Positions 6,093 through 26,869 of a stretch of 48,701 bases of DNA are shown one piece after another; within the stretch, counting starts at the first letter, position 1, and every line of letters begins with the position of its first letter. This DNA comes from Clostridia bacterium (GTDB taxonomy: Bacteria > Bacillota > Clostridia > Christensenellales > Aristaeellaceae): positions 1 to 48,701 of the forward strand of contig JAFWQA010000044.1 of assembly GCA_017509255.1 (NCBI GenBank), written 5' to 3'. The position numbers were made by a program, and so were the translations under genes. The notes under the pieces are model-generated. The model saw only the letters and a program-made list of their open reading frames with translations. It was not told the origin of the DNA and searched no databases.

Positions 6093-6134
6093 AAAAAGGC
6101 GTCTTTGAGTGATTCTCAAAGACGCCTTTGCCTT
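6093..6134 (-). promoter_or_regulatory. Leader attenuator of asnB operon (conserved box plus terminator)
   Basis: On the minus strand the box AAGGCAAAGGCGTC (6121-6134) begins ten bases after the -10 hexamer. GGCGTCTTTGAG then pairs perfectly with CTCAAAGACGCC (6098-6126, five-base loop) and is followed by a T run, a textbook intrinsic terminator. The AAGGCAA part of the box is outside the stem. A strong promoter followed at once by a terminator means expression depends on antitermination or read-through. The same arrangement stands before purC and glnA. Confidence 0.8.
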
Positions 6135-6144
6135 GGATGCTGAT

Positions 6145-6173
6145 GTTATACAGGATTCGGCTTTTATTGTCAA
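6145..6173 (-). promoter_or_regulatory. Promoter of asnB-purA-purB-guaA
   Basis: On the minus strand a perfect -35 TTGACA (6168-6173) is separated by 17 bases from the -10 TATAAC (6145-6150). Transcription should start near 6138, only a few bases before the conserved box and the leader terminator. The promoter is strong and divergent from the purC promoter about 70 bases away. Confidence 0.85.
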
Positions 6174-6244
6174 CCGGCATCCTGTTTTTTTGATGTCTCT
6201 TTCGGTTTTCAGTCCAAAATACACGGAAAAGCCATCCTGATTTA

Positions 6245-6273
6245 TTGACACGGAAAGGGTCCGGAATTAAAAT
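6245..6273 (+). promoter_or_regulatory. Promoter of purC-purF
   Basis: A perfect -35 TTGACA (6245-6250), 17-base spacer and -10 TAAAAT (6268-6273). The start site should be near 6280, directly upstream of the conserved box. Confidence 0.85.
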
Positions 6274-6283
6274 ACACCGTGTA

Positions 6284-6335
6284 AAGGCAATGGCGTCTTT
6301 GGGTTTTGTTGACCCGAAGACGCTTTTGTTTTTTC
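6284..6335 (+). promoter_or_regulatory. Leader attenuator of purC-purF (conserved box plus terminator)
   Basis: The box AAGGCAATGGCGTC (6284-6297) begins ten bases after the -10. GCGTCTTTGGGT pairs with ACCCGAAGACGC (6293-6323, one wobble, seven-base loop), followed by TTTTGTTTTTT. The 5' AAGGCAAT is not part of the terminator stem. A sequence CCATTG just after the T run (6336-6341) could pair with CAATGG in the box, but the other leaders have no equivalent. No purine riboswitch or PurR box is visible here. Confidence 0.8.
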
Positions 6336-6366
6336 CCATTGAACGTGTGAAAGAAGGGGCTTTGAA

Positions 6367-7083
6367 ATGGAAAAGGGAAAGCAGCTTTATGAGGGGAAAG
6401 CAAAAAAAGTTTTTGAAACCGATGACCCGTCACTTCTGATCGTTTCCTACAAGGACGATGCCACAGCTTTTAACGGCCTGAAAAAAGGATCGATTGCCGG
6501 AAAGGGTGTCATCAATAATCAGATGAGTAATTATCTGATGGCATTGATCGAAAAGGAAGGGATCCCCACTCATTTTGTCAGGGAGCTCAGTGACCGGGAT
6601 ACTCTTGTGCGCCGTGTTGCGATTATCCCCCTTGAGGTCATCGTGCGGAATATTGCCGCCGGCTCCTTTGCTAAAAATTACGGGGTAAGCGAAGGAACGG
6701 TTTTCGACCGTCCGACCGTGGAGTTTTCTTATAAAAACGATGCGCTTGGCGATCCGCTGATTGCTCCGTCCCATATCCTTGCCCTTCATCTTGTCACTGA
6801 GAAAGAGCTCGATACGGTTTCCGGGTATGCTCTCAGGATCAATGAGATTCTGCGCTCTTTTTGGTCAAAACGCGGTATTACGCTGGTCGATTTCAAGATC
6901 GAGTTCGGCAAAACCCCGGACGGAACGGTTATTCTCGCGGATGAGATAAGCCCCGATACCTGCCGTCTGTGGGATACAGCGACTGGAACCAGGCTCGACA
7001 AGGACCGTTTTCGTCGGGACCTGGGAAATGTGGAAGAAGCATATATTGAAGTAATGAAAAGGCTGAAGGCGGATCAGGAATGA
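6367..7083 (+). CDS. purC: SAICAR synthetase (phosphoribosylaminoimidazole-succinocarboxamide synthase)
   Basis: Joins CAIR and aspartate with ATP to give SAICAR in de novo purine synthesis. The 238-residue length is that of the bacterial single-domain enzyme. The N terminus has the typical LYEGKAKKVF segment (about residues 7-16). The second family signature is VDFKIEFG near residue 180. The start at 6367 follows AAGAAGGGG. It overlaps purF by ATGA, so the two are translationally coupled. The remaining pur genes (purE, K, D, L, M, N, H) are not in this window. Confidence 0.97.
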   Translation: MEKGKQLYEGKAKKVFETDDPSLLIVSYKDDATAFNGLKKGSIAGKGVINNQMSNYLMALIEKEGIPTHFVRELSDRDTLVRRVAIIPLEVIVRNIAAGSFAKNYGVSEGTVFDRPTVEFSYKNDALGDPLIAPSHILALHLVTEKELDTVSGYALRINEILRSFWSKRGITLVDFKIEFGKTPDGTVILADEISPDTCRLWDTATGTRLDKDRFRRDLGNVEEAYIEVMKRLKADQE

Positions 7084-8522
7084 TGAAAGCAGCTCATCTT
7101 CATGAGGAATGCGGTGTGTTCGGTATCTGGTCCCCGGATCCTGCGCCGGTCGCCGGCCTGGTTTATTATGGACTGTATGCACTGCAGCATCGCGGACAGG
7201 AAAGCGCAGGTATTGTTCTCAACGATGACGGGGTTTTCTCCGTCAGAAAAGGCTCCGGGCTGGTCAGTGAAGTTTTCCATGGAGATGAACTCCGTTCTCT
7301 CGGAACGGGCAGGATCGGTGTGGGGCATGTTCGGTATGCCACGACCGGATCGGACAGTGAACGGAATATCCAGCCTCTTGTCGTCAACCACGGAAAAGGG
7401 CACCTGGCGCTGGCACACAACGGGAATCTGACCAACTCGTTTGAGCTGCGTAGCAGGCTGGAAGCAGGTGGGGCGATCTTTCATTCGTCCACGGATTCGG
7501 AGGTCATCTCCTACGTGATTGTTCAGCAGCGTCTCCGTCTTGCTTCCATTGAGGAAGCAGTTTCCGCTGCGATGAATATCGTCAGGGGTGCTTACTCCCT
7601 CGTCATCTCTTCTCCGGCGAAGCTGATTGCGGTTCGGGATCCGAACGGATTCCGCCCGTTGTGTTATGGAAAGCGTCCGGACGGGGGAATTGTCTTTGCG
7701 TCGGAATCCTGCGCTCTGGACGCGGTCGGGGCTGCCTTTGTCCGTGATCTTCTGCCCGGGGAAATTGCTGTCGTTGAGGACGGAGATCTTCGCTTTGATA
7801 CTTCACACTGCGGCAGCGTGCCGCGAAGCCTGTGTGTATTTGAGTATATCTATTTTGCCCGGCCGGACTCGGTGATTGACGGGATGCCGGTCAGTGCTGC
7901 CCGCCGGCGTGCCGGTGCCTATCTTGCTGAAGAGCATCCCGTGGAGGCGGATGCCGTCATCGGGGTTCCCGATTCCGGTCTGGATGCTGCTCTCGGTTAT
8001 TCCGTCCGGTCCGGGATCCCCTACGCGATCGGCTTTACAAAGAATAAATATATCGGCCGCACTTTTATTTCGCCGGAACAGTCCGTCAGGGAAAACGGTG
8101 TACGGATCAAGCTGAATCCGATCCGTGAGGCAGTGGCGAATAAAAGAATTGTCCTGGTGGATGATTCCATAGTCCGCGGTACAACAAGCCGGCGGATCAT
8201 TGACCTGCTTCGGGATGCCGGCGCGGTGGAGATTCATATGCGGATCTCCTCTCCGCCCTTTATTGCCCCCTGCTGCTACGGTACGGATGTGGACGATGCC
8301 GGAAGCCTGATTGCCAACAGGCATACTGAAAATGAAATAGCGCGGATGATCGGCGCTGATTCCCTCGGTTATCTGAGCACGGATCATGTCCGGCAGCTGG
8401 CGGACGGCTGTCCGGGTTTCTGCACAGCCTGCTTTGGAGGAGGTTATCCCGTTTCTCCCCCCGCCGTCATGAAAAAATCCCGCTTTGAAGAAAAGATCAG
8501 TCAAAAAAAGGACCCGCTCTGA
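7080..8522 (+). CDS. purF: Amidophosphoribosyltransferase
   Basis: Transfers the glutamine amide to PRPP, giving phosphoribosylamine, the committed step of purine synthesis. It has 480 residues. A short propeptide of about ten residues precedes the nucleophile Cys11 (EECGVFG), as in the Bacillus enzyme. The PRPP motif VLVDDSIVRGTTSRRI lies near residues 357-372. Cysteines in LCVFEY, APCCYG and GFCTACFGG match the four ligands of the oxygen-sensitive 4Fe-4S cluster of the Bacillus type. The start at 7080 overlaps the purC stop; an ATG three bases later is equally possible. A bidirectional terminator follows. Confidence 0.96.
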   Translation: MMKAAHLHEECGVFGIWSPDPAPVAGLVYYGLYALQHRGQESAGIVLNDDGVFSVRKGSGLVSEVFHGDELRSLGTGRIGVGHVRYATTGSDSERNIQPLVVNHGKGHLALAHNGNLTNSFELRSRLEAGGAIFHSSTDSEVISYVIVQQRLRLASIEEAVSAAMNIVRGAYSLVISSPAKLIAVRDPNGFRPLCYGKRPDGGIVFASESCALDAVGAAFVRDLLPGEIAVVEDGDLRFDTSHCGSVPRSLCVFEYIYFARPDSVIDGMPVSAARRRAGAYLAEEHPVEADAVIGVPDSGLDAALGYSVRSGIPYAIGFTKNKYIGRTFISPEQSVRENGVRIKLNPIREAVANKRIVLVDDSIVRGTTSRRIIDLLRDAGAVEIHMRISSPPFIAPCCYGTDVDDAGSLIANRHTENEIARMIGADSLGYLSTDHVRQLADGCPGFCTACFGGGYPVSPPAVMKKSRFEEKISQKKDPL

Positions 8523-8537
8523 AGCGGGTCCTTTCTC
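8503..8537. terminator. Bidirectional terminator between purF and glmS
   Basis: GGACCCGCT and AGCGGGTCC (8510-8531, four-base loop) form a perfect stem. An A run lies to the left and a T run to the right, so the hairpin can end both the rightward purC-purF and the leftward glmS transcripts. It overlaps the purF stop codon. Confidence 0.9.
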
Positions 8538-10389
8538 ATTCTACCGTAACGCTTTTGGCCAGATTGCGGGGTTTGTCCACGTCTTCTCCGCGCCCTACGG
8601 CTGTATAATAGGCCAGTAGCTGCATCGGGATCACAGCCAGGCTTCCCGCGAAATGGGGATCCGTCCTGGGAATGTAAACCGTGAAATCCGCAGTGTCTTC
8701 AATGCTGTAGTAGCCGTAATTGGCCACCGCCATCAGATAGGCTCCTCTGCTTTTGACCTCCACCATATTGCTGAGTGTTTTTTCATACAGTTCCGGCTGT
8801 GTCAGACATCCGATCACCAGTCGTCCGTCTTCGATCAGGCTGATCGTTCCGTGCTTCAGTTCTCCGGCTGCGTAAGCTTCGGAATGAATATAGCTGATTT
8901 CCTTCAGTTTCAGGCTTCCTTCCAGGCAAATGGCGTAATCCAGTCCCCTTCCGATATAAAAAACATCTTTGGTATTGCCGAGCTTGGATGCAAACCATTG
9001 AAGCCGTTCCTTGTCCTCGAGCAGGCGCTCTACCTTGTCCGGAAGCTTCTCCAGTTCTTCCAGGAGGGGCTTTGTATCCTTGATTGTGTCCCGAACCTCC
9101 CCCAGGCGGATCGCAAACAGGTACATGGCGATCAGCTGCGCGCTGTAGGCTTTTGTTGTGGCTACGGCGATTTCCGGACCGGCTTTGGTATAAAAAACGG
9201 AGTCTGCTTCCCGGGCAATGGAGGACCCGACGACATTGACGATGGAAAAGGTCCGGATCCCGTTCTTTTTGGCTTCTCGCAGTGCGGCAAGGCTGTCCGC
9301 CGTTTCGCCCGACTGGGAAATAATGATCACGAGGGCATCCTTTTCCAGCTTCATTTTCCGGTAACGGAACTCACTGGCCAGTTCAACCCGGACGGGAACG
9401 CCGGTAAGATCTTCGGTCACATACTGTCCGATCACGCCGACGTGGTATGCGGAACCGCAGGCCACGATATAGATCTGCCGGATTTGCCGGAGCTGCTCCT
9501 CATCCAGTCCCAGATCGATGATTCCGTTCTGTACGGCGCTGTGCAGCGTGTCAGCGATCACTCTGGGCTGCTCATGGATCTCCTTCATCATGAAGTGCTC
9601 ATAGCCGCCCTTTTCCGCTGCTTCTGCGGAAAATGTCACCTCTGTAAGCTCCTTCTGCACCTCATCGCCGTTCAGGTTGAAGAAATGAGCTTCTCCGGGC
9701 AAAAGTCTCGCCATCTCCAGATTGTCAATGTAATAGACTGACCGGGTATAATTCAGAATGGCAGGCACGTCGGAAGCGATATAGGTTTCTCCGTCCGCAA
9801 TGCCGATGATCATCGGGCTGTCCTTCCGGGCAACATATATCTCGTTCGGATAATCGCTGAACATAACCTCCAGCGCGTATGATCCGCGTACCCGGACCAT
9901 GGTTTTGGCGATCGCGTCGATCGGCCCGATCTGATATTTTTTGTAATAATAATCGATCAGCTTGATGACCACTTCAGTATCTGTACTGCTGTAAAAGCTA
10001 TATCCGTGCCGGAGCAGCTTTTCCTTCAGTTCGATATAGTTTTCGATGATGCCGTTATGGACCCCGACAACTTCAGACTCAACTGTTCCGGAAGCAGAAC
10101 CTGTGCAGTTTCCGCTCACGTGGGGATGAGCGTTGATCTGCGTAGGCTCTCCGTGAGTCGCCCACCGGGTATGTCCGATGCCGCAGCAGCCTTCCAGAGC
10201 TTTCCCGTTATCGGTTTTTTCCTCCAGTTTGACCAGCTTCCCGGTAGATTTGACGACCTCCGCCGGTGCCGATCCGTTCCGCACGGCCAGCCCGGCCGAA
10301 TCGTATCCTCTGTATTCCAGCTTTTCCAGCCCATGCAGCAGAATAGGGCCTGCCTGCCTGTGTCCGGTGAATCCGACAATTCCGCACAT
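8536..10389 (-). CDS. glmS: Glutamine-fructose-6-phosphate aminotransferase (isomerising)
   Basis: Makes glucosamine-6-phosphate from fructose-6-phosphate and glutamine, feeding peptidoglycan synthesis. Starting at 10389 the protein has 617 residues and begins MCGIVGFTGH, with Cys2 as the nucleophile after methionine removal. An ATG twelve bases upstream would put four extra residues before the cysteine. GGAAGG lies twelve bases before the chosen start. The class II glutaminase covers about residues 1-230, followed by two SIS sugar-isomerase domains with VACGSAYH and IGRGLDYAICLEG. The C terminus LAKSVTVE is the usual catalytic tail. No glmS ribozyme is found upstream, so feedback must work otherwise. 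Confidence 0.97.
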   Translation of the reverse strand: MCGIVGFTGHRQAGPILLHGLEKLEYRGYDSAGLAVRNGSAPAEVVKSTGKLVKLEEKTDNGKALEGCCGIGHTRWATHGEPTQINAHPHVSGNCTGSASGTVESEVVGVHNGIIENYIELKEKLLRHGYSFYSSTDTEVVIKLIDYYYKKYQIGPIDAIAKTMVRVRGSYALEVMFSDYPNEIYVARKDSPMIIGIADGETYIASDVPAILNYTRSVYYIDNLEMARLLPGEAHFFNLNGDEVQKELTEVTFSAEAAEKGGYEHFMMKEIHEQPRVIADTLHSAVQNGIIDLGLDEEQLRQIRQIYIVACGSAYHVGVIGQYVTEDLTGVPVRVELASEFRYRKMKLEKDALVIIISQSGETADSLAALREAKKNGIRTFSIVNVVGSSIAREADSVFYTKAGPEIAVATTKAYSAQLIAMYLFAIRLGEVRDTIKDTKPLLEELEKLPDKVERLLEDKERLQWFASKLGNTKDVFYIGRGLDYAICLEGSLKLKEISYIHSEAYAAGELKHGTISLIEDGRLVIGCLTQPELYEKTLSNMVEVKSRGAYLMAVANYGYYSIEDTADFTVYIPRTDPHFAGSLAVIPMQLLAYYTAVGRGEDVDKPRNLAKSVTVE

Positions 10390-10408
10390 CTTTTGCATCA
10401 TCCTTCCC

Positions 10409-10434
10409 GCAGACTCTTTTATGAAGATGTCTGC
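10409..10434 (-). other. Short leader hairpin before glmS
   Basis: GCAGAC and GTCTGC form a stem in the first 30 bases of the glmS transcript, ending just before the GGAAGG ribosome site. It has no T run and is not a terminator. It may stabilise the mRNA or affect ribosome access. Confidence 0.4.
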
Positions 10435-10441
10435 AAGATGT

Positions 10442-10469
10442 ATTATAACATATTGTTTATTTTTTGCAA
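10442..10469 (-). promoter_or_regulatory. Promoter of glmS
   Basis: Minus strand -35 TTGCAA (10464-10469), 16-base spacer and consensus -10 TATAAT (10442-10447). The leader is about 45 bases long, too short for a glmS ribozyme. Confidence 0.8.
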
Positions 10470-10630
10470 CCGGGTCCTTTTACCGTTTCACAGCAAATAG
10501 ATGTCGCATATTGTCTTAATAATGTATCTCCGAAGCTGTAAACGATTGACAGTCTGCGGGCTTTGGGATGAAGCCGTTTCCCTTCACAGCCTGAAGCGGC
10601 TTTCCCGTTCCCGGGAAAGCCGCTTTTTGT
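10470..10630 (+). ncRNA. Candidate small RNA ending at an orphan plus-strand terminator
   Basis: A perfect 14-pair stem (10594-10607 with 10612-10625) followed by TTTTTGTT lies in the gap between two minus-strand genes. It has the polarity to end a plus-strand transcript; the minus-strand side lacks a T run. Within 10560-10580, GGCTT and AAGCC form a second hairpin. A weak plus-strand promoter (TTTCAC, 17 bases, TATTGT, about 10486-10514) would give an RNA of roughly 110 bases. Alternatively the hairpin simply serves amt as a poor minus-strand terminator. Low confidence. Confidence 0.3.
10594..10630 (+). terminator. Strong plus-strand terminator hairpin
   Basis: AAGCGGCTTTCCCG pairs with CGGGAAAGCCGCTT across a four-base loop, with a T run on the plus strand only. 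No plus-strand gene precedes it. On the minus strand it stands immediately after the amt/PII stop codon, where it could still act as a 3' stabilising hairpin. Confidence 0.75.
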
Positions 10631-10639
10631 TATTCCGGT

Positions 10640-12397
10640 TTATTCCACATCCTGCAGTGCGTCATACCCTTCCTCGCCGGTCCGCACCTTCACAACATTC
10701 TCCACATCGTAAACAAATATCTTTCCGTCTCCGATATGGCCTGTGTAAAGCACTTTCTTGGCTGTTTCGATCACACTGCGCACAGGCACCTTGCTCACAA
10801 CGATGTCCACCTGCACCTTGGGAAGCAGGTTGGCCTCCACCTGAACGCCGCGGTAGTACTCAGGCTTGCCCTTCTGCTGACCGTAGCCCATCACGTGGGA
10901 AACGGTCATGCCGGTCACGCCCAGCTTGCTCATGGCATCCTTCAGAGCATACAGGCGCTCTTCCTTGCATACGATCTCCACCTTCGTAAACTTGGGTGTT
11001 CCCTCCTCAAAGGCGGGAACCTTTTTCACGGGAACGGCTTCTGCGACGGGGGTTTCTCCGCTGACCACAACAGGCGCCGCGCCTTCTTCAATATAATCCG
11101 GCAGCATGGCGAATCCGGCATAAGCTGAAGGCAGGCCGTGCTCTGTAGTATCCAGGCCCAGAGTTTCTTCTTCGCGGGATACGCGAAGCCCGATCAGCTT
11201 TTTAATGATGAGGAAAACGACGGTGATGGTAGCTGCCGTCCATGCTGCGACAGAAACAAAACCGGTCAGCTGAAGTCCCATCAGTTCAAATCCGCCTCCG
11301 TAAAAGAGGCCTGTCAGCGTTTTCCCGGAAGCATTGGCAATGCTGTATCCCGGAGCCGCGCTGGTGGCGAAAAGGCCGACCGAAAGAGTGCCCCAGATGC
11401 CGTTCATGCAGTGTACCGCAACAGCGCCGACCGGATCGTCAATATGCAGTTTCTGATCCAGCAGCCATACGCCAAACACGACCAGCACGCCGGCTACCGC
11501 GCCGATGACCGCGGCGCCAAGGGCGTCCGTCACGTCGCAGGGAGCCGTGATCGCTACCAGGCCGGCCAGAGACGCGTTCAGGCACATGGACACGTCGGGC
11601 TTTCCGTACTTGATCCAGGTAAAGATCATGCAGACCACCGTCGCGACCGACGGAGCAATTGTCGTAGTCAGGAAAATGGATCCCATCTGTTCAATGGAAG
11701 TTGCTGCGGCGCCGTTGAATCCGTACCATCCCAGCCAGAGGATGAATACACCCAGCGCGCCCAGTGCGATGCTGTGGCCGGGGAATGCATGGATCTCCGT
11801 TACTTTTCCGCTTTCATCCTTCTTGAATTTGCCGAGTCTGGGGCCGAGCAGTTTTGCGCCGATCAGCGCCGAAATACCTCCGACCATGTGGATCGCGCAG
11901 GAACCCGCAAAATCGTGGAATCCGATCTGAGCAAGCCAGCCGCCGCCCCAGATCCAGTGTGCTTCAATGGGATAGATAACTGCGGAAATAACCGCGGAAT
12001 AAACACAGTAAGAAAGGAATTTCGTTCTCTCTGCCATCGCCCCGGAGACGATTGTGGCTGTTGTGGCGCAGAACACAAGATTAAATACAAAACTGGAGAA
12101 GTCAAAGTCCGTGTAGGCTGTGAAAAGGTCAAATCCAGGTTTGCCGATCAGTCCGACCAGGTCTTCCCCCATCAGAAGGCTGAATCCGATCAGAACAAAC
12201 ACCACGGTTCCGATACAGAAGTCCATCAGATTCTTCATAATAATATTGCCGGTGTTTTTGGCCCGTGTAAAGCCTGCCTCCACCATGGCAAATCCTGCCT
12301 GCATCCAGAACACCAGCGCAGCGCCGATCAGGAACCAAACCCCGAACACCTGTCCCTGCGTCATCTCCGCAACCAATTCGCGAATCGTCTCATCCAT
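10640..12397 (-). CDS. amt: Ammonium transporter fused to a PII signal protein
   Basis: A membrane ammonium channel with a PII (GlnB/GlnK) domain on the same chain, 585 residues. The Amt part (about 1-440, eleven predicted membrane segments) keeps the pore histidines in DFAGSCAIH and VGAVAVHCMNG. A linker leads to PII at about 475-585, with the nucleotide segment GDGKIFVYDVENVVKVRTGE. The T loop reads YYRGVQVEANLLPK, so the tyrosine uridylylated in enteric PII is absent and control by UTase is unlikely. Such fusions presumably let PII gate its own channel. It follows gltD by 89 bases, and the gap holds the shared leader box and a hairpin, so it may be read as a separately gated last gene of glnA-gltB-gltD-amt. 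Confidence 0.93.
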   Translation of the reverse strand: MDETIRELVAEMTQGQVFGVWFLIGAALVFWMQAGFAMVEAGFTRAKNTGNIIMKNLMDFCIGTVVFVLIGFSLLMGEDLVGLIGKPGFDLFTAYTDFDFSSFVFNLVFCATTATIVSGAMAERTKFLSYCVYSAVISAVIYPIEAHWIWGGGWLAQIGFHDFAGSCAIHMVGGISALIGAKLLGPRLGKFKKDESGKVTEIHAFPGHSIALGALGVFILWLGWYGFNGAAATSIEQMGSIFLTTTIAPSVATVVCMIFTWIKYGKPDVSMCLNASLAGLVAITAPCDVTDALGAAVIGAVAGVLVVFGVWLLDQKLHIDDPVGAVAVHCMNGIWGTLSVGLFATSAAPGYSIANASGKTLTGLFYGGGFELMGLQLTGFVSVAAWTAATITVVFLIIKKLIGLRVSREEETLGLDTTEHGLPSAYAGFAMLPDYIEEGAAPVVVSGETPVAEAVPVKKVPAFEEGTPKFTKVEIVCKEERLYALKDAMSKLGVTGMTVSHVMGYGQQKGKPEYYRGVQVEANLLPKVQVDIVVSKVPVRSVIETAKKVLYTGHIGDGKIFVYDVENVVKVRTGEEGYDALQDVE

Positions 12398-12423
12398 GTC
12401 TTATCACTCCTTCTTTTTATGAG

Positions 12424-12475
12424 AAAAGGTGTCCGTTTCAGCGGATTCTCCCGCTTTCCCGGACGCCTTTGCCCT
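12424..12475 (-). promoter_or_regulatory. Intergenic attenuator before amt/PII (conserved box plus hairpin)
   Basis: On the minus strand the box AGGGCAAAGGCGTC (12462-12475) is one base off the consensus of the other three. AAAGGCGTCCG pairs with CGGACACCTTT (one mismatch), with an inner stem AGCGG/CCGCT, followed by TTTTC. No -10 or -35 sits at the spacing seen at the other sites, so this copy is probably read from the glnA operon. That favours action on RNA rather than as a DNA operator. Confidence 0.65.
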
Positions 12476-12486
12476 CTTTGAAATAT

Positions 12487-13890
12487 TTACTTCAGAAAAA
12501 ATCCTGCTTCATCGGCAGCTGCCCGGCCGTCAGCAATGGCACGGACCACCAGGGACTGCCCTGTTTTCATATCACCGGCGGTGAACAGCTTTCCGCCGAT
12601 CCGATGGCTGCCCTTCTCGGTTTCAGGCACTCCCCTGGAACCCAGAGTCAGTCGGAAGGACTCTGCCGTTTTCTGATCGCAGCCGGTAAAACCTGCTGCG
12701 ATCAGCAGGAGCTGGCAGGGTAATGCCTCTTCGGTGCCCGGCACATGCTCCATCCTGCCCTCGGGAGTCCGCCTTACGCGTACGGTTTGGACGGCTTCGA
12801 TCTTCCCTTCCGCGTCCGTCAGGATTTCTTTAACGGTCGTTTCATATATTCTCGGATCTTTTCCGAACAACGTGATCGCTTCCTCCTGGCCGTAATCGGT
12901 TCTCAGGATCCGCGGCCATTCCGGCCACGGATTTCCGGCTGTTCTTTCCATCGGAGGAGCGGGCAGCATTTCCAGCTCTGTAAGGGAACGGCATCCCTGC
13001 CTGATCGCGGTGCCCACGCAGTCATTACCGGTATCTCCCCCGCCGACAACGATCACGTCCAGGCCTCTGGCGCTGACCGACGGTATATCCCCTCCGATCA
13101 CACTTCGGGTCGCTTCTGTCAGATAGTCCACAGCGAAGCGTACTCCCTCCGCGTTCTCCCCGGGAACATTCAGCGTTCTCGGTTTTCTTGCGCCTCCGCA
13201 AAGAACAGCCGCGTCGAAATCCTTCAGGATTTCCGGTGTTGCTTCCGTACCGGTCTGAAAAACGATCCCTTCCTCGCGCATGAGTCCGATCCTTCTGGAG
13301 ACGACGCTCTTGGGAAGCTTCATGTTCGGGATCCCGAACATCAGCAGGCCTCCCGGATATTCTGCCCTTTCAAATACGGTTACACTGTGGCCCATCTGAT
13401 TCAGCCTGTCTGCCGCGGCGAGACCTGACGGTCCCGAGCCTGCAACGGCGACCCTTTTTCCGGTCCTTGCTGACGGGATTCGCGGCCTGACCCAGCCTTT
13501 TTCATAGCCCTTCTCGATCAGGTACAGTTCATTGTCCCGGTTCACGGATGCTCCTTTTTCCGCCAGATTGCACGCTTTTTCGCACAGTGCCGGGCAGACT
13601 CTTCCGGTAAATTCCGGAAAAGGTGCGGTTTTGAGCAGTCTCTCCAGGGCTCCTCTCTCATCCCCCCTCCAGAGGAGATCGTTCCACTCCGGAATCAGAT
13701 TATGCAGCGGACAGCCGTAATCGGATTGGCAGAACGGGACTCCGCAGTTCATGCAGCGGGACGCCTGCTCCTGCCTTTCTCTGGGATTCAGTTCCAGATG
13801 GAGAGAGGAATAATCCCGGATCCTTTCCGCTTCGGATCTCCACGGATTCTCATTTCTTTCCCTTTCCATAAAGCCTGTTGCCTTTCCCAT
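12487..13890 (-). CDS. gltD: Glutamate synthase (NADPH) small subunit
   Basis: Passes electrons from NADPH through FAD and Fe-S centres to GltB. It has 467 residues. The N-terminal cysteine set (CMNCGVPFC and the following YGCPLHN, residues 46-63) binds 4Fe-4S clusters. The FAD motif AGSGPSGLAAA is near residue 150, and the NADPH motif VGGGDTGNDC is near residue 290. The start at 13890 (MGKATGF) has GGAGG seven bases upstream and lies four bases after the gltB stop, so the two are tightly coupled. The longer frame beginning inside gltB is not used. Confidence 0.96.
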   Translation of the reverse strand: MGKATGFMERERNENPWRSEAERIRDYSSLHLELNPRERQEQASRCMNCGVPFCQSDYGCPLHNLIPEWNDLLWRGDERGALERLLKTAPFPEFTGRVCPALCEKACNLAEKGASVNRDNELYLIEKGYEKGWVRPRIPSARTGKRVAVAGSGPSGLAAADRLNQMGHSVTVFERAEYPGGLLMFGIPNMKLPKSVVSRRIGLMREEGIVFQTGTEATPEILKDFDAAVLCGGARKPRTLNVPGENAEGVRFAVDYLTEATRSVIGGDIPSVSARGLDVIVVGGGDTGNDCVGTAIRQGCRSLTELEMLPAPPMERTAGNPWPEWPRILRTDYGQEEAITLFGKDPRIYETTVKEILTDAEGKIEAVQTVRVRRTPEGRMEHVPGTEEALPCQLLLIAAGFTGCDQKTAESFRLTLGSRGVPETEKGSHRIGGKLFTAGDMKTGQSLVVRAIADGRAAADEAGFFLK

Positions 13891-13894
13891 GAGC

Positions 13895-16800
13895 TTACCT
13901 CCTTTCCAGCAGCCGCCGGTATTCTGTCGGAATAACCATCCGGAAGAAGGGCAGCCACGCGTCAAAGCTTTCCAGAATGCGCCCTGCTTTGGGGGACCTG
14001 GTGATTTCAGCATGAAGTGTCAGCATTTCCTTCAGTTCTGCCGCGTATTCCTTTTCCGAAAGATCGTATACCTCCACCATTGCGTTGTTCAGGTGTCTGC
14101 TCAGCTCGCCTTCCCTGTCCAGCACATAGGCGATCCCGCCTGACATGCCGGCCGCGAAATTGTCTCCGATCGGTCCGATCACCGCGACCCTTCCTCCGGT
14201 CATATACTCGCAGCCGTGATCTCCTGTTCCCTCAACGACCGCCTTCGCCCCGGAATTCCGGACGCAGAACCGTTCCCCGGCCATTCCGGCAATATAGGCC
14301 TCGCCGCCTGTCGCTCCGTACAGAGCAACATTTCCGATCAGCGTATCTCCTTCAGCGGTCCTGCCCTCTTCCGGAGGAATGACGGCAATGCATCCTCCCG
14401 AGAGCCCCTTGCCGAGATAATCGTTGGCCTCACCCTTCAGGATCAACTGGATATCCCCTGGCAGAAACGCGCCGAAGCTTTGACCGCCGCATCCGCGGAC
14501 CCTCAGCACGCTTTTTCCGGAGGCACCGCTGGCAGCCTGCCTGGAAGCATACAGTGTCCCGAAAGTACGGTCCGTGTTGAAAACTTCCGTTCCGATAGGC
14601 AGCCTTCGCTGATCTGCCCTTTCCTGAAGCCTGAAATCGAATTCACTTTCCTTGCGGAAAAACCGGTTTTCTCTGCACCGTGTCAGATCACTCAGATCGA
14701 TGGGGCTCTCATCCGCCGTTTTCAGCAGATCGCCCCTGCCCACCAGTTCATTGACAGTCCTTGCGCCGAGTCCGGCCATAATCTCCCGCAGCTGTTCAGC
14801 GATAAAGAACATGAACCGCTGAACATACTCCGGTTTGCCCGCAAAGCGCTTGCGAAGCTCCGGATTCTGAGTGGCAATGCCGAAGGGGCAGGTATCCAGA
14901 TTGCAGACTCTCATCATCCGGCAGCCCATCACGACCAGCGGAGCAGTTGCAAAAGCAAATTCTTCAGCGCCGAGCAGCAGTGCTATGGCTACGTCACGGC
15001 CGGTCATCAGCTTCCCGTCCGTTTCCAGTGTGACCATTTCCCTCAGTCCGTTTTTGCAGAGTGACTGGTGAGCCTCTGCCAGGCCCAGCTCCCAGGGAAG
15101 TCCCGCGCCGTGAATGGAAGTCAGCGGTGCGGCGCCGGTCCCGCCTTCGCCTCCGGAAATTAGCACGACCTGCGCTCCGGCCTTAGCTACGCCTGAAGCA
15201 ATGGTCCCCACACCGGTTTCCGACACCAGCTTGACTGAGATCCTTGCGTTTTCATTCGTGCATTTCAGATCATAAATCAGCTGCGCGAGATCTTCTATGG
15301 AATAAATATCATGGTGAGGCGGCGGAGAGATCAGAGAGATTCCCGGCGTGGAGCACCGTGTTCTCGCGACCTCCTCGGAGACCTTCCCGCCGGGGAGATG
15401 ACCACCCTCGCCAGGTTTTGCGCCCTGTGCCATCTTGATCTGGATTTCCTTCGCTGAAAGCAGGTATTTCAGCGTAACGCCGAAGCGTCCGGACGCCACC
15501 TGCTTGATAGCCGAATTCAGGGCGGTACCGAGTCTTTCGGGCAGCTCGCCCCCTTCACCCGTATTGGATTTGGCGCCGATCCCGTTCATCGCCTCCGCCA
15601 GGCATTCATGTGCCTCCTTGGACAGAGAGCCGTAAGACATGGCCCCTGTTTTGAAGCGCTTGACGATTTCAGATGCCGGCTCCACTTCTTCAAGCGGGAT
15701 CTCCCTGCAGTTTTCAAACCGGAAGTCCAGCATTCCGCGGATCGTTTTCGGCCCGTCGTTCTTCAGCTTGTCTGCATATTTGCGGAACATTCCGTAATCG
15801 TTGTTCCACACAGATTGCTGCAGCAGGTGGATGGTTTCCGGGCTGTAAAGATGCTCTTCGGCATCCTTGCCGGTTCTGAGCCGGTGCCTGCCTATGCTGT
15901 CAGGTGTCCGGTCGCAGTCCTGTCCGCTGAATGCTTTCCCATGATGCCACAGCACGTCTTCTTCTATGCTTTTCAGGTCCTTCCCGTCCAGCCGGTGCAG
16001 TGTGTTCGTAAAGTAACGGTCCACAAGGTCGCCGTTCAGGCCGAGGGCTTCGAAAAGCTGTGCGCTCTGATATGCCTGCATGGTGGAAACACCCATCTTG
16101 GAAGCAATATGCAGCACTGCGTCCGTCAGTGCCTGATTGTAATCCCGGACTGCCTGGCCCGCCGGCTTTGGGATCTGTCCGCTCTCGCACAGGGCAATGA
16201 TGCATTCATGCGCCAGATAAGGGTTGACGCAGCGCGCGCCGTAAGCGATCAGCAGGGCCATCTGGTGTGCGTCCCGCGGTTCACCGCTTTCCAACACGAC
16301 CGATATCGCCGTGCGCATTTTATGCTGCACAAGATATTGCTCCAGCGCCGATACCGCCAGCAGGGACGGGATCGCCATATGAGTCCTGTCCACTCCCCTG
16401 TCCGAAAGGATCAGGATATTGGTGCCTCTGGCATAAGCTTCCTGACAGGATTCAAACAAGTGATTCAGCGCGCCCTCAAGACCGGTTTCCTCAGTAAACA
16501 GGATCGGAAGTGTCTCCACCTGAAAGCCCGGATGATCGATCTCACGGATCCGCTGCAGCTCCTCAGCGGTAATGACCGGTGTCGGCAGTTCCAGCACCGC
16601 GCAGTTCTCAGCGCATGGATTCAGCAGGTTTCCGTCATCTCCCAGATAGACGGCGCAGTCCGTCTTCAGCTGTTCCCTCAGCGCGTCGATCGGGGGATTC
16701 GTTACCTGCGCAAAGCGCTGTTTAAAATAGGAAAAAAGCGGAGGATGTGTTTTTGACAGAACGGCGATCGGCTCGTCTGCCCCCATCGCTCCGATGGGCT

Positions 16801-18250
16801 CTTTTCCGGTCGCGGCCATGGGCAGGATCATTTCCCGGATATCCTCCCAGGCATATCCGAATGCCTGCAGCAGCTGTCCTCTTTTATCGTCGCTCTCATG
16901 TCTCTGATTCAGATTGGATACCGGCAGCTGATCCAGCTTCAGGATACCGTTTCTGACCCATTCGGCGTACGGATGCAGTCCGGAAAAATACCGCTTGATC
17001 TCCTCCCCGCTCATCACCCGTCCGGTGGACAGGTCCGCGGAAAGCAGGTCCCCGCTTTTCAGCCTCCATCTGCGGATAATATGGCTGTTCTCCTCGTACA
17101 GGATCCCGGCCTCCGACGCCAGGATCAGACGATGATCGTCTGTCTCACTGCAGCGCAGGGGGCGAAGTCCGTTCCGGTCCAGGGATGCGCATACTTTTTC
17201 ACCGTCTGTATACAGGATGGCGGCAGGCCCGTCCCAGGGTTCCATCATGGTACTGTAGTAGCGGTACATATCCCGCCAGGTTTCCTTTTCCTTCTTCCCC
17301 TGCCACGGTTCGGGCAGCAGGATCATTCCTGCCAGCTCCGGCGGAAAACCGTTCATACACAGAAACTCGACAGTATTGTCCAGCATCATGGAATCCGATC
17401 CGTTCGGCTCCACGACGGGATAGACTTTTTCCAGCGATCCTCTCATGCTGGCGGAGCGCATGGTCTCCTCCCGCGCCAGCATGCGGTCGGCATTCCCCCG
17501 GATCGTGTTGATCTCCCCGTTATGCAGGAGCATTCTGTGGGGATGGGCCTTCGGCCAGCTCGGTTCCGTGTTGGTGGAAAAGCGGGAGTGCACCAGTGCC
17601 ATCTGTGAAGTATAGTCGTCCCGGTCCAGATCCGTATAAAAGGTCCTCAGCTGGTGCACGAGCATCATTCCCTTATATACGACGGTTCTGCTCGACAGTG
17701 AACAGATATAGGTGTCCTTCCGTTTTTTCTCGAAGACCCTTCGCAGCACATACAGTCTCCTGTCAAAAGCAGAGCCTTCATGTACATTGTCCGGACGCCG
17801 GATGATGCACTGGGCGATAACCGGCATGGTTTCCAGGGCGCCCTTTCCGAGGAGCTCCGGCCTGCAGGGCACCTCCCGCCATGCGGTTACGGGCAGCCCC
17901 TGCGCGGATGCCGTTTCTTCAAAGTCCTGTCTTGCCTGTGCGGATGCTTCCCGGTCCTGCGGAAAGAAGAACATGCCGACGCCGTAGGTTCCCTCTTCCC
18001 CGAGGGAGATCGCGTTTTCCTCCGCCCAATGCTGCAGCAGCGTATGGGGCAGCTGTGTCAGGATCCCCACGCCGTCCCCGGTCGTGCCGGAAGCATCGCA
18101 GCCGGCCCGGTGCGCAAGTCTTTCTACGATCTTCAGCGCATCGGACACGGTGCGGTGGCTTGCCGGCCCTTTCAGGTCAATGATGGCGCCGATCCCACAG
18201 GCGTCGTGCTCCAGGCTGCTGTCCACCATCGGATATCTGTCTTCCATCAT
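13895..18250 (-). CDS. gltB: Glutamate synthase (NADPH) large subunit
   Basis: Makes two glutamates from glutamine and 2-oxoglutarate; with GlnA it forms the GS-GOGAT cycle. It has 1451 residues. The N-terminal class II glutaminase has its nucleophile at Cys18 (HDACGIG) behind a short propeptide. The central and FMN-binding domains follow, with PGEGGHLPGGKV and SGGEGGTGAAPLTS. A 3Fe-4S cysteine cluster appears in CNLDTCPFGIATQ. The C-terminal GXGXG helix domain carries GCGGQSFGAF and GATGGEAYIAG. The ATG at 18250 has AAGGA seven bases upstream; a GTG six bases earlier sits too close to it. It follows glnA by 48 bases with no terminator. Confidence 0.97.
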   Translation of the reverse strand: MMEDRYPMVDSSLEHDACGIGAIIDLKGPASHRTVSDALKIVERLAHRAGCDASGTTGDGVGILTQLPHTLLQHWAEENAISLGEEGTYGVGMFFFPQDREASAQARQDFEETASAQGLPVTAWREVPCRPELLGKGALETMPVIAQCIIRRPDNVHEGSAFDRRLYVLRRVFEKKRKDTYICSLSSRTVVYKGMMLVHQLRTFYTDLDRDDYTSQMALVHSRFSTNTEPSWPKAHPHRMLLHNGEINTIRGNADRMLAREETMRSASMRGSLEKVYPVVEPNGSDSMMLDNTVEFLCMNGFPPELAGMILLPEPWQGKKEKETWRDMYRYYSTMMEPWDGPAAILYTDGEKVCASLDRNGLRPLRCSETDDHRLILASEAGILYEENSHIIRRWRLKSGDLLSADLSTGRVMSGEEIKRYFSGLHPYAEWVRNGILKLDQLPVSNLNQRHESDDKRGQLLQAFGYAWEDIREMILPMAATGKEPIGAMGADEPIAVLSKTHPPLFSYFKQRFAQVTNPPIDALREQLKTDCAVYLGDDGNLLNPCAENCAVLELPTPVITAEELQRIREIDHPGFQVETLPILFTEETGLEGALNHLFESCQEAYARGTNILILSDRGVDRTHMAIPSLLAVSALEQYLVQHKMRTAISVVLESGEPRDAHQMALLIAYGARCVNPYLAHECIIALCESGQIPKPAGQAVRDYNQALTDAVLHIASKMGVSTMQAYQSAQLFEALGLNGDLVDRYFTNTLHRLDGKDLKSIEEDVLWHHGKAFSGQDCDRTPDSIGRHRLRTGKDAEEHLYSPETIHLLQQSVWNNDYGMFRKYADKLKNDGPKTIRGMLDFRFENCREIPLEEVEPASEIVKRFKTGAMSYGSLSKEAHECLAEAMNGIGAKSNTGEGGELPERLGTALNSAIKQVASGRFGVTLKYLLSAKEIQIKMAQGAKPGEGGHLPGGKVSEEVARTRCSTPGISLISPPPHHDIYSIEDLAQLIYDLKCTNENARISVKLVSETGVGTIASGVAKAGAQVVLISGGEGGTGAAPLTSIHGAGLPWELGLAEAHQSLCKNGLREMVTLETDGKLMTGRDVAIALLLGAEEFAFATAPLVVMGCRMMRVCNLDTCPFGIATQNPELRKRFAGKPEYVQRFMFFIAEQLREIMAGLGARTVNELVGRGDLLKTADESPIDLSDLTRCRENRFFRKESEFDFRLQERADQRRLPIGTEVFNTDRTFGTLYASRQAASGASGKSVLRVRGCGGQSFGAFLPGDIQLILKGEANDYLGKGLSGGCIAVIPPEEGRTAEGDTLIGNVALYGATGGEAYIAGMAGERFCVRNSGAKAVVEGTGDHGCEYMTGGRVAVIGPIGDNFAAGMSGGIAYVLDREGELSRHLNNAMVEVYDLSEKEYAAELKEMLTLHAEITRSPKAGRILESFDAWLPFFRMVIPTEYRRLLERR

Positions 18251-18298
18251 TGACACATCCTTCTCTTTTACGAAAATCGGTATTTCTTCCGGCTGAAA

Positions 18299-19630
18299 TC
18301 AGAAAATGGTCAGATATTTTTTCAGTTCCCAGTCGGTCACGTGGGTGCGGTAATCATCCCACTCGGCATATTTTCCGGCGGTATACTGGGGAACGACGTG
18401 CTCTCCCAGCGTGTCGCAGATCAGCTTGTCCTCCAGCATCAGGTCCACCGCTTCCTTGATGGAGCCCGGCAGGCTTTCGATCCCCTTTGCCTTTCTTTCC
18501 TCCGCGCTCATGGCAAAGATGTTTTCGGTTACCTCAGCCGGCGGCGTCAGGCCTTTTTCGATGCCGTCCAGTCCGGCTGCCAGGCAGACAGCCAGCTCCA
18601 GATACGGATTGCAGGAAGGATCCGGACAACGCAGTTCCACACGGGTGCCCATGCCGCGTGCGGCGGGGATGCGGATCAGCGCGCTGCGGTTGGAAGCTGA
18701 CCAGGCCAGATAGCAGGGAGCTTCGTAGCCGGGAACCAGCCGCTTGTAAGAGTTGACCAGCGGGTTGGTAACGGCTGCCATGCCCTTCATGTGTGTCAGA
18801 ATACCCGCAATGAACGCATACGCTTCTTTGGAGAGCCCCAGCTCACCCTTGGGATCGTCAAAAACGTTTTTGCCGTCCTTGAACAGTGACATATTGGTGT
18901 GCATGCCGCTTCCGTTGATCCCGAAGACCGGCTTCGGCATAAAGGTCGCGTGCAGCCCGTTCTTCTGCGCCAGGGACTTGACGGCGAATTTGAAGGTCAT
19001 GATCCGGTCTGCAGCGGTCAGTGCGTCGGCATACTTGAAGTCGATCTCATGCTGTCCGGCTGCCACTTCGTGATGGGACGCTTCGATCTCAAAGCCCATC
19101 TGCTCCAGCGCCAGGCAGATTTCCCGGCGGGTGCTCTCACCGTGGTCAAGCGGTCCGAGGTCGAAATAACCGGCCTGATCAGCCGTCTGTGTGGTAGGCA
19201 TCCCGTTTTCATCAGTCTGGAAAAGGAAGAATTCACACTCAGGCCCGACGTTGAAGGAATATCCCATATCAGAGGCTTTTTTCAGCGCGCGCTTCAGTGT
19301 TCCGCGGGGATCGCCGATGAAGGGCGTTCCGTCCGGATTGTACACGTCACAGATCAGCCGGGCCACCTTCCCGTGCTGCGGGCGCCAGGGCAGCAGGGTG
19401 TAGGAGTCCAGATCCGGGTGCAGATACTGGTCGGATTCCTGGATCCGCACAAATCCCTCAATGGAACTGCCGTCGATCATGATCTGATTGTTCACGGCTT
19501 TTTCGATCTGGGAAGATGTAATGGCTACATTCTTCAGCTGCCCGAAAATGTCAGTGAACTGCATGCGGATGAACTCTACATCGTCCTCCCGCACCATGCG
19601 GATAATGTCCTCTTTGCTGTACCTGCTCAT
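18299..19630 (-). CDS. glnA: Glutamine synthetase, type I
   Basis: Makes glutamine from glutamate, ammonia and ATP as a dodecamer. It has 443 residues, the length of the Bacillus GSI-alpha type. All key residues can be seen: Asp53 of the DGSSIEGF latch, Arg62 (feedback control in Bacillus), Glu131 and Glu133 metal ligands, HHEVAAGQHE, GSGMHTN, flap Glu303 in VPGYEAP, and VELRCPDP. The C-terminal tail that contacts regulators in Bacillus is present. There is no adenylylation-type insert. The start at 19630 follows AAGGAGG. It heads the glnA-gltB-gltD-amt operon behind a promoter-box-terminator leader. The paralogue at 25026-26243 differs sharply at the flap. Confidence 0.97.
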   Translation of the reverse strand: MSRYSKEDIIRMVREDDVEFIRMQFTDIFGQLKNVAITSSQIEKAVNNQIMIDGSSIEGFVRIQESDQYLHPDLDSYTLLPWRPQHGKVARLICDVYNPDGTPFIGDPRGTLKRALKKASDMGYSFNVGPECEFFLFQTDENGMPTTQTADQAGYFDLGPLDHGESTRREICLALEQMGFEIEASHHEVAAGQHEIDFKYADALTAADRIMTFKFAVKSLAQKNGLHATFMPKPVFGINGSGMHTNMSLFKDGKNVFDDPKGELGLSKEAYAFIAGILTHMKGMAAVTNPLVNSYKRLVPGYEAPCYLAWSASNRSALIRIPAARGMGTRVELRCPDPSCNPYLELAVCLAAGLDGIEKGLTPPAEVTENIFAMSAEERKAKGIESLPGSIKEAVDLMLEDKLICDTLGEHVVPQYTAGKYAEWDDYRTHVTDWELKKYLTIF

Positions 19631-19666
19631 GATGAACCCTCCTTAACAAAAATCCTCAAGATAAAG

Positions 19667-19705
19667 AAAAAGGCAACGGCGTCGGTTCAAGACGTCATTG
19701 CCTTT
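19667..19705 (-). promoter_or_regulatory. Leader attenuator of glnA operon (conserved box plus terminator)
   Basis: On the minus strand the box AAGGCAATGACGTC (19691-19704) begins ten bases after the -10. Here the whole box is inside the stem: it pairs with GACGCCGTTGCCTTT (19669-19683, one mismatch) across a seven-base loop and is followed by a T run. Same geometry as the asnB and purC leaders with a different 3' arm. Confidence 0.8.
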
Positions 19706-19714
19706 ACGCGGCAC

Positions 19715-19743
19715 AGATTACACCCTGGAGCTTTTCCTGTCAA
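19715..19743 (-). promoter_or_regulatory. Promoter of glnA-gltB-gltD
   Basis: Minus strand -35 TTGACA (19738-19743), 17-base spacer, -10 TAATCT (19715-19720). It is back to back with the carA promoter. Confidence 0.85.
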
Positions 19744-19775: not shown

Positions 19776-19804
19776 TTGTGCGGAAAATCGGGCTATGCTA
19801 TAAG
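19776..19804 (+). promoter_or_regulatory. Promoter of carA operon
   Basis: -35 TTGTGC (19776-19781), 17-base spacer, -10 TATAAG (19799-19804). The start site should be near 19811, exactly where the leader hairpin begins. Confidence 0.7.
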
Positions 19805-19810
19805 GTTTTT

Positions 19811-19858
19811 AAGAGCGATCCCGTCGGGTTCACCTGTGTATGCCGGTCGCTCTTGTTG
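19811..19858 (+). promoter_or_regulatory. 5'-terminal hairpin in the carA leader
   Basis: AAGAGCGA pairs with TCGCTCTT with further CC/GG pairing inside, followed by TTGTTGTC. It may be a weak terminator or a 5' stabiliser. The shared nitrogen box is absent, and no PyrR-binding consensus is visible, so the signal it answers to is unknown. Confidence 0.5.
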
Positions 19859-19879
19859 TCATGCAATGAGGAGGGCAGT

Positions 19880-26287: not shown

Positions 26288-26869
26288 ATGCCTTATGACA
26301 GGCCGTCATACCGCGCGCTGGTCGTCTCCTCCTCCGAAAAAATGAATACGGCTCTCCGTTCACTCCTGTCCGATCTCGACTGTGAACTGATACGCAATAC
26401 GGATAACATTGCCCATGCGCGCCGCTTGTGCCTGGAAAATGCGTTTGACCTGGTCATCGTCAACGCCCCGCTGCCGGATGACCCCGGTATTCGTTTTGCC
26501 ATTGATGTATCTGCGGGCAAAAGCAGTGTCTGTCTTCTGATGATCCGTTCAGAGGTGTTTCAGGATATTGAAGAAAAGGTGACCTCCTATGGGGTCATGG
26601 CTCTTTCCAAGCCTACGTCTCCCGCGATTCTGAGCCAGTCGCTGCAGTGGATGTCCGCTGTGCGGGAACGCCTTCGCCGCACTGAGCTTCAGGCGCAGAC
26701 CCTGGAAAACAAAATGCAGGATATTCGTATCGTCAACCGTGCCAAGCTCCTCCTCATTGAAAAAAAGGGTCTGTCAGAGCCGGAAGCTCACCGCTTTATC
26801 GAAAAGCAGGCAATGGACCGCTGTATCTCCAGGCGTGCTGTCGCGGAGGAGCTCATCCGTTCCCTCTGA
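26288..26869 (+). CDS. ANTAR-domain RNA-binding regulator with a degenerate receiver
   Basis: A 193-residue protein. Residues about 8-120 have the fold pattern of a response-regulator receiver, but the phosphorylation aspartate is Asn59 (DLVIVNAPLP) and the acidic pair near the N terminus is replaced (VVSSSEK); Lys108 remains. A helical linker leads to the ANTAR domain (about 130-193, ending ISRRAVAEELIRSL). ANTAR domains bind RNA hairpins and prevent termination, and in clostridia such proteins next to glutamine synthetase genes control nitrogen genes. With no phosphorylation site, the signal probably comes by protein contact or a ligand; the neighbouring GS paralogue is the obvious candidate. 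The start at 26288 has AAAGGAGGA seven bases upstream. A terminator follows. Confidence 0.93.
   Translation: MPYDRPSYRALVVSSSEKMNTALRSLLSDLDCELIRNTDNIAHARRLCLENAFDLVIVNAPLPDDPGIRFAIDVSAGKSSVCLLMIRSEVFQDIEEKVTSYGVMALSKPTSPAILSQSLQWMSAVRERLRRTELQAQTLENKMQDIRIVNRAKLLLIEKKGLSEPEAHRFIEKQAMDRCISRRAVAEELIRSL

Follow-up and report, generated by a model that had tools for sequence, protein, structure and literature searches.

Within a 48,701-nt stretch of DNA from a Clostridia bacterium (contig JAFWQA010000044.1; the whole stretch is called the window below), the original prediction had singled out a 14-base box, AAGGCAAWGRCGTC, in the leaders of four nitrogen transcription units. Our analysis indicates that this box is very probably the antiterminator half of an attenuator, in which an ANTAR protein would bind a single hexaloop at the 5′ end of the RNA, and that it represents a broad variant of ANTAR antitermination. 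The features that carry this reading can be read directly from the sequences: the architecture of the leaders, the conservation of the loop, compensatory stems, the overlap with a terminator, the co-occurrence with one ANTAR clade, and the content of the genes that follow.

The box is present exactly at positions 6121-6134 (-), 6284-6297 (+) and 19691-19704 (-) and with one mismatch at 12462-12475 (-), all as predicted. Allowing up to two mismatches, the window holds seven matches, compared with 1.24 on average and at most 5 in 100 shuffled sequences; a one-mismatch match at 19670-19683 (+) is the opposite arm of the glnA terminator. AAGGC and GTCTT pair around the hexaloop AAWGRC, so that the 14 bases are part of a hairpin, AAGGC[AAWGRC]GTCTT, whose loop carries A at position 1 and G at position 4 (A1/G4). 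All four sites have an A1/G4 hexaloop on a stem of at least 3 bp, and in the amt copy the stem reads GGGC/GTCC, where an A-T to G-C compensatory change keeps the pairing. The AAGGCAA half of the box had been described as unpaired at three of the four sites, and as kept for a reason other than the stem. In minimum-energy folds, however, parts of it pair with downstream bases at all four sites, and all of it in purC and glnA; in the box hairpin, AAGGC has a partner of its own, GTCTT, across the loop, with the compensatory change at amt. In line with the original prediction, each box overlaps a terminator-like hairpin. The 3′ arm of the box hairpin doubles as part of the terminator 5′ arm, so that the two structures are mutually exclusive, and when the full leaders are folded computationally the terminator prevails.

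Three of the four boxes lie directly behind a sigma-A-like promoter recognised by sequence. The bit scores given for these leaders are from R1, a covariance model of promoter and hairpin that was trained on leaders from ANTAR-bearing loci. On the minus strand, the asnB leader has the promoter TTGACA-17-TATAAC (6145-6173; TTGACA 6168-6173, TATAAC 6145-6150; R1 match 6115-6173, 45.2 bits), the predicted antiterminator hairpin AAGGC[AAAGGC]GTCTT at 6119-6134 and, sharing bases with it, an intrinsic terminator at 6093-6129; asnB, encoding asparagine synthase B (4463-6046; NF006949), heads the operon asnB-purA-purB-guaA. The purC and purF genes (6367-8522, +; TIGR00081, TIGR01134) follow TTGACA-17-TAAAAT (6245-6273; TTGACA 6245-6250, TAAAAT 6268-6273; 35.1 bits), the predicted hairpin AAGGC[AATGGC]GTCTT at 6284-6299 and an overlapping terminator at 6293-6334. 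For glnA-gltB-gltD (12487-19630, -), which encode a type I glutamine synthetase (GS) and glutamate synthase, the corresponding elements are TTGACA-17-TAATCT (19715-19743; TTGACA 19738-19743, TAATCT 19715-19720; 30.9 bits), the predicted hairpin AAGGC[AATGAC]GTCTT (19689-19704) and a terminator at 19667-19704. The terminators of all three leaders were located by terminator scoring and folding. The fourth copy has no promoter and lies in the gltD-amt gap as an internal hairpin, GGGC[AAAGGC]GTCC (12461-12474, -; covariance model 16.2 bits, E 0.087), where it overlaps a terminator-like hairpin seen in sequence and fold (12424-12468, -); the next gene encodes an ammonium transporter fused to a PII domain (10640-12397, -; TIGR00836 and PII models). 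All of these genes had been assigned correctly in the original prediction. Similar Amt-PII fusions also stand behind leaders in two other loci (L222 and L225).

Relatives were collected by scanning named genomes with the ANTAR protein of the window, which yielded the best 80 of 108 loci. Counts of promoter coupling, and counts made free of a loop or a stem filter, refer to the window and loci L047-L126; the collection of leaders also draws on L039-L046. It comprises 59 leaders, 57 of them selected by promoter, stem, loop and T-run rules (loop AANGRN, with two loop strings dropped) and two window sites whose deviating -10 boxes made it necessary to add them by hand. With no filter on the loop, A1/G4 accounts for 53 of the 154 rows of hexaloops that overlap terminators, and the next class for 14 (some rows repeat one site); the majority of the A1/G4 rows immediately follow a TTGACA-17-TATAAT-like promoter. 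Among hairpins at promoter spacing, again regardless of loop sequence, 57 of 85 are A1/G4. With no filter on the stem, AANGRC hexamers at promoter spacing are enclosed by at least 4 bp in 54 of 147 cases, representing 20 distinct stems, and by fewer than 4 in 93, whereas in reversed sequence 0 of 82 reach even 3 bp. In the 59 aligned leaders, for which stem length was itself a selection rule, 82 cells are changed on both sides of the stem, compared with a shuffle mean of 31.8 and with 4-30 when slid. The stems of these leaders include AAGGC/GTCTT, TGAGC/GTTCA, TGAAC/GTTCA, ACAGC/GCTGT, TGCAC/GTGTG and others around a constant loop. What is shared is thus an attenuator-like leader, as had been proposed, but the 14-base sequence is only one version of it. 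In locus L055, both leaders of one organism (3525-3583, -, and 3638-3694, +) have G at loop position 1 (GAAGAA and GAAGGT), a concerted change from A that could mark an altered ANTAR specificity.

The coupling of the hairpin to a promoter is evident in the control counts: 61 AANGRN sites in the real sequences compare with 4 in the reversed ones, and 55 with 0 at a promoter score of at least 10 of 12. In 56 of the 61 sites the stem follows the -10 box at 7-11 nt, whereas this distance is flat for other loops. By a lenient rule, 58 of the 59 leaders have a terminator overlapping the hairpin, and this rule is also satisfied at 30 of 346 control places shifted by 300-900 nt; with a stricter score the counts are 53 of 59 and 0 of 346. 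Rfam covariance models gave no family match at the window leaders or in L049, L076 and L091, and a T-box or riboswitch reading of the box was rejected. The view that no known leader motif fits stands as far as these Rfam searches go, but not in principle, because the leaders fit the described principle of ANTAR antiterminator targets (PMC3369931; PMC8934654) and the window carries an ANTAR gene. An A1/G4 hexaloop overlapping a terminator is the hallmark of such targets, and genes described behind them encode PII, transporters for ammonium, urea and nitrate, nitrogenase, and glutamate, glutamine and arginine synthases (PMC3369931).

The described ANTAR targets contain two hairpins, P1 and P2 (PMC3369931). 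In our 59 leaders, taking the seventh base after the -10 box as the transcription start, 1-7 nt of the predicted RNA come before the 5-bp core stem, which leaves no room for a P1. A second hexaloop hairpin sought in the 60 nt upstream was not apparent either, as A1/G4 hexaloops with at least 3 bp number 6 there, in 6 of the 59 leaders, compared with 11.8 expected (one sixteenth of all hexaloops in these 60 nt). Since no upstream P1 could be transcribed, one hairpin would have to be enough. The structure of EutV shows one hexaloop contacted by each ANTAR domain; in that study the minimal motif for binding is reduced to a single hexaloop, yet the dimer is still held to contact both hexaloops in turn to prevent termination (PMC8934654). 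Some loci carry tandem hexaloop-terminator units, the second without an evident promoter of its own (L050, L076, L127 and L175, and L129, all on the minus strand).

From these features we infer the transcription start, protein binding, antitermination and the signal with its sign, as follows. A strong vegetative promoter would start an RNA in which the leading 20-30 nt form a small hairpin of at least 4 bp with the loop AANGRN. As the polymerase advances, the hairpin's 3′ half would pair with downstream RNA to give an intrinsic terminator, stopping transcription after about 40-80 nt. The NitR-like ANTAR protein encoded at 26288-26869 would bind the loop through A1 and G4 and keep the hairpin closed, so that the terminator could not form and the operon would be read.

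This ANTAR regulator (26288-26869, +) is the presumed binder of the hexaloop. It matches PF03861 with an E value of 1.4e-16 and is the only ANTAR match in the assembly, which is 74% complete; its relatives of solved structure, by sequence, are Rv1626, EutV and AmiR. The alignment shows a degenerate receiver, in which the phospho-acceptor Asp is replaced by Asn and the acidic pair by SSS, so that it lacks the marks of a phosphorylation-controlled response regulator. Among 81 aligned regulators the Asp is retained in 8, and the other 73 have Asn (67), Tyr (5) or Ser (1); the acidic pair is mostly Ser or Ala, whereas the ANTAR part is highly conserved (AK..L, HRFIEKQAMD). A kinase is an unlikely input because the Asp is kept in so few of them and the acidic pair is mostly replaced. 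As the receiver cannot be phosphorylated in the usual way, the signal probably arrives via a partner, for which GlnA2 or GS itself would be candidates. GlnA2 is a GS-like protein encoded directly upstream of the ANTAR gene (25026-26243, +; profile match and alignment), and in 71 of the 80 loci, as in the window, a GS-like gene precedes the ANTAR gene at a distance of no more than 700 bp. Most catalytic residues are kept in the 71 GlnA2 sequences; at the position that we take to be the flap Glu, 42 have Lys and 20 retain Glu. GlnA2 is perhaps a sensor rather than an enzyme.

Several further observations concern this gene and its surroundings. The window ANTAR protein is at most 52% identical to its homologues in the named genomes (among the best 80 of 108 loci), and it shares only 27-29% identity with the glnA-adjacent ANTAR of four genomes of the same genus (L160, L164, L166 and L169); by eye, that ANTAR protein also lacks the phospho-Asp. 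An exchange of ANTAR cassettes between lineages is possible. Upstream of glnA2, CarB (the large chain of carbamoyl phosphate synthase) and a diaminopimelate epimerase (PF01678) share one open reading frame (ORF; 20973-25007, +). Elsewhere in the window, a T-box-like match at 40716-40960 (-) reaches 78 bits, compared with a gathering score of 93, at the start of phenylalanyl-tRNA synthetase genes that we named from their translations.

To follow the leader across genomes we used R1, since the sequence pattern RGGCAANGRCGTC had proved useless as a genome-wide probe: it resembles coding sequence and matched in 144 of 150 family genomes. The whole-genome R1 scans scored 36 candidates per genome at the family level and 22 at the class level, and for this reason some leaders are expected to have been missed. 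The ANTAR clade of the window was defined by a match to alignment A4 at E 1e-46 or better, the cut being placed at a gap (next best 3e-34). Among 243 class genomes, 52 of the 68 that have this clade carry R1 matches at E ≤1e-4, compared with 6 of the 63 that have other ANTARs and 4 of the 112 that have no ANTAR match (Fisher p ~1e-14 for any ANTAR against none, ignoring relatedness). In the 150 family genomes, at E ≤0.01, leaders occur in 29 of 86 genomes with an ANTAR domain and in 5 of 64 without, and in 18 of 51 and 0 of 34, respectively, when the count is limited to genomes with a completeness of 90% or more and a contamination of 5% or less. The ANTAR loci themselves have an R1 match at E ≤0.01 in 43 of 80 cases, with most of the training leaders among these matches. 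They are mostly clostridial, with some from Treponema, Chitinispirillia and Fibrobacterota assemblies (best 80 of 108). An ANTAR gene together with R1-type leaders was seen outside Clostridia in metagenome-assembled genomes of Treponema (L113, L118 and L093) and Fibrimonadales (L099).

The genes behind the leaders were counted as nitrogen genes when they serve glutamine, glutamate, ammonia, asparagine, purine, CTP, carbamoyl phosphate, NAD or amino-sugar synthesis or a similar amide transfer. One of the 59 leaders (L120) gave no ORF, and 55 of the other 58 first ORFs could be named, those of L058, L101 and L103 being dropped as unlikely short genes. The 55 comprise 19 split amidotransferases of glutamate synthase, 22 GS genes (12 type III, 9 GlnA2-like and 1 type I), 6 glutamate dehydrogenases, 3 asparagine synthases, 2 SAICAR synthetases, one full glutamate synthase, one GXGXG protein and one oxidoreductase (L100). 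Because loci next to an ANTAR gene could bias this count, the best class-level matches were also taken regardless of ANTAR proximity. Among these strong matches, 25 of 27 first ORFs are nitrogen or amide genes, namely 13 glutamate synthase amidotransferases, 6 type III GS and 2 glutamate dehydrogenases, with asparagine synthase, SAICAR synthetase, GlmS and a CobB/CobQ-like glutamine amidotransferase occurring once each; no match was obtained for the remaining two, both short ORFs. Twenty further regions were hand-picked, one per genome, from listed matches without a locus, at a time when their genes were not yet known. Here 18 of 20 precede Amt (4), type III GS (2), PyrG (2), PurC (2) or one each of CarA, NadE, AsnA, glutamate dehydrogenase, GuaA, PurF, PurA and AsnB. 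Of the remaining two, one stands before an S1-domain protein and shows no visible hairpin. The other (L216, G262:C31:32190-32248) is a well-formed leader with an AAAGGC hexaloop and a terminator before a 778-aa PPDK_N-domain protein, which has no obvious nitrogen role.

The link to glutamine and ammonia thus extends well beyond the four initial cases and is not a scattered one, and the common thread would mostly be the making, importing or spending of glutamine and ammonia. A covariance-model search of related Clostridia had been suggested with the original prediction; its strong matches are enriched before such genes, and its weak matches at the family level are mixed. Listed down to E 0.01, and with element positions relocated by our own scoring rather than by Infernal, the family matches gave 28 first ORFs (29 loci, L127-L156 minus the window's own L128, with no ORF in L145), of which 18 are GS, glutamate synthase, glutamate dehydrogenase, PurF or Amt.

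A number of points weigh against the reading as an ANTAR-controlled attenuator. The other 10 of these 28 family matches do not precede nitrogen genes and include impB/mucB-family, Clp and ABC-permease genes, which indicates that many matches near E 0.001-0.01 are noise. At the laxer E of 0.01, leaders also appear in 29 of 112 class genomes without an ANTAR, along with 28 of 63 with other ANTARs and 59 of 68 with this clade. Strong leaders are present in 4 of 112 genomes without any ANTAR match (G182, G186, G333 and G365), which gaps in these assemblies of 70-200 contigs may explain. The co-occurrence table is partly circular, because R1 was trained on ANTAR-bearing loci and some genomes may belong to the same species, and its counts are not independent events, the genomes being related. 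The leader of the window's own ANTAR-bearing operon, carA-carB/dapF-glnA2-ANTAR, has a terminator-like hairpin with the loop region GATCCC (19801-19865, +) and no recognisable A1/G4 hexaloop; carA elsewhere (L206) has one. Glutamine users such as asnB, purF and carA share the design of the makers, which is at odds with simple induction when glutamine is low. PurC and PurA, although part of the purine pathway, take aspartate and not glutamine as substrate. In Enterococcus faecalis, antitermination requires the two-hairpin motif (PMC3369931; PMC8934654), and against this background the sufficiency of a single hairpin is a presumption. Finally, the transcription starts are predictions, as are binding and termination.

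If a P1 hairpin had been missed and the true start lay further upstream, the leaders would be classical dual-hexaloop targets. The characterised cases do have P1 and P2 (PMC3369931; PMC8934654), and tandem copies occur in some leaders (L050, L076, L127 and L129). However, the 6 upstream A1/G4 hexaloops in 59 leaders fall below the expected 11.8, a near-consensus promoter at fixed spacing fills the upstream stretch, and the tandem copies inspected each have their own terminator-like hairpin behind them, which makes a missed P1 unlikely. Another RNA-binding protein or a small molecule, as in a glutamine mini-riboswitch, might read the hairpin with ANTAR as a bystander. The strong leaders in the 4 of 112 genomes without a detected ANTAR would be in line with such a reader, as would a regulon wider than the ANTAR regulons in the literature surveyed; but the A1/G4 loop, the overlap of hairpin and terminator and the co-occurrence (52 of 68 compared with 4 of 112) point to ANTAR, a 16-nt hairpin offers little space for an aptamer, and the leaders searched match no Rfam family. 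We regard this as quite improbable.

That the box acts instead as a DNA operator directly downstream of the promoter is very improbable, even though its position is fixed at about +1 to +25 and its sequence is strongly conserved within the lineage. Both sides of the stem vary with pairing kept (20 distinct stems), a terminator overlaps in 53 of 59 leaders by the strict score, and the internal copy at amt has no promoter. Terminators are inverted repeats in which like arms recur, so ordinary terminators plus chance could in principle yield such a box, but the shuffle, reversed-sequence and shifted-place controls and the conserved gene content contradict this explanation, to which we assign a negligible likelihood.

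The attenuator with a single ANTAR-bound hexaloop may be part of a wider scheme, which we put forward tentatively and with somewhat less than even confidence. One RNA regulator would set the amide-nitrogen economy of the cell across much of Clostridia, reaching Treponema and Fibrobacterota assemblies: a pseudo-receiver ANTAR protein, under GlnA2 and not a kinase, would catch a single hexaloop as soon as the RNA leaves the polymerase. Its targets would be ammonia uptake, glutamine and glutamate synthesis and many users of glutamine or ammonia, in the synthesis of asparagine, purines, GMP, CTP, carbamoyl phosphate, NAD and amino sugars. If true, this would provide a defined RNA switch for nitrogen control in a large class of anaerobes that is frequent in gut and rumen assemblies. 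A natural single-hexaloop target would also bear on the question raised by the EutV structure, how one dimer uses one or two hairpins, and the dead receiver points to kinase-free nitrogen sensing. The very short leaders make binding and antitermination easily testable.

Control of a regulator by a metabolic protein rather than by phosphorylation is found in AmiC-AmiR of Pseudomonas aeruginosa. The relation proposed here between GlnA2 and ANTAR would resemble it. A GS-like sensor might act on the ANTAR regulator as GS acts on TnrA in Bacillus subtilis, where a regulator is likewise controlled by a metabolic protein (PMC6316151), although TnrA binds DNA.

Among RNA-binding regulators, NitR of Clostridium saccharobutylicum, an ANTAR protein, is said to antiterminate the GS and glutamate synthase genes upon nitrogen limitation (PMC6316151), and in C. 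thermocellum expression of the ANTAR gene Clo1313_2030 fell together with that of its GS-glutamate synthase cluster (PMC4676874). The regulator of our leaders is of the same kind as the ANTAR-type NitR proposed for C. saccharobutylicum and C. acetobutylicum (PMC6316151; PMC4676874), and like it adjoins a GS gene, in 71 of 80 loci and in the window; what our data add to NitR is a target with a single hexaloop, together with a broader regulon and a broader taxonomic range. The light-regulated ANTAR protein PAL (NmPAL) also binds single short RNA hairpins, but these come from SELEX and genome mining, its natural target is unknown, and it has LOV and PAS domains in place of a receiver (PMC10966536).

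With the dual-hexaloop targets of eut, nas and ami (Ramesh 2012, PMC3369931; Walshe 2022, PMC8934654), our leaders have in common the A1/G4 hexaloop, the small stem, the terminator overlap, an ANTAR protein in the genome and the link to nitrogen genes. They differ in having one hairpin, at the RNA 5′ end directly behind the promoter, a longer loop consensus (AANGRN, mostly AAAGGC) and a gene set that extends to asparagine, purine, GMP, CTP, carbamoyl phosphate, NAD and amino-sugar synthesis. The element had been called perhaps undescribed; this no longer applies to the ANTAR principle, which is described, but in the open-licence literature we found no description of a single-hexaloop 5′-terminal ANTAR leader, part of which may be in print for clostridial NitR, nor of an ANTAR leader with a regulon of such width. 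Judged from sequence, the leader appears to work like an ANTAR target but falls outside the two-hairpin definition, and the single-hairpin layout and the width of the regulon would be its new part.

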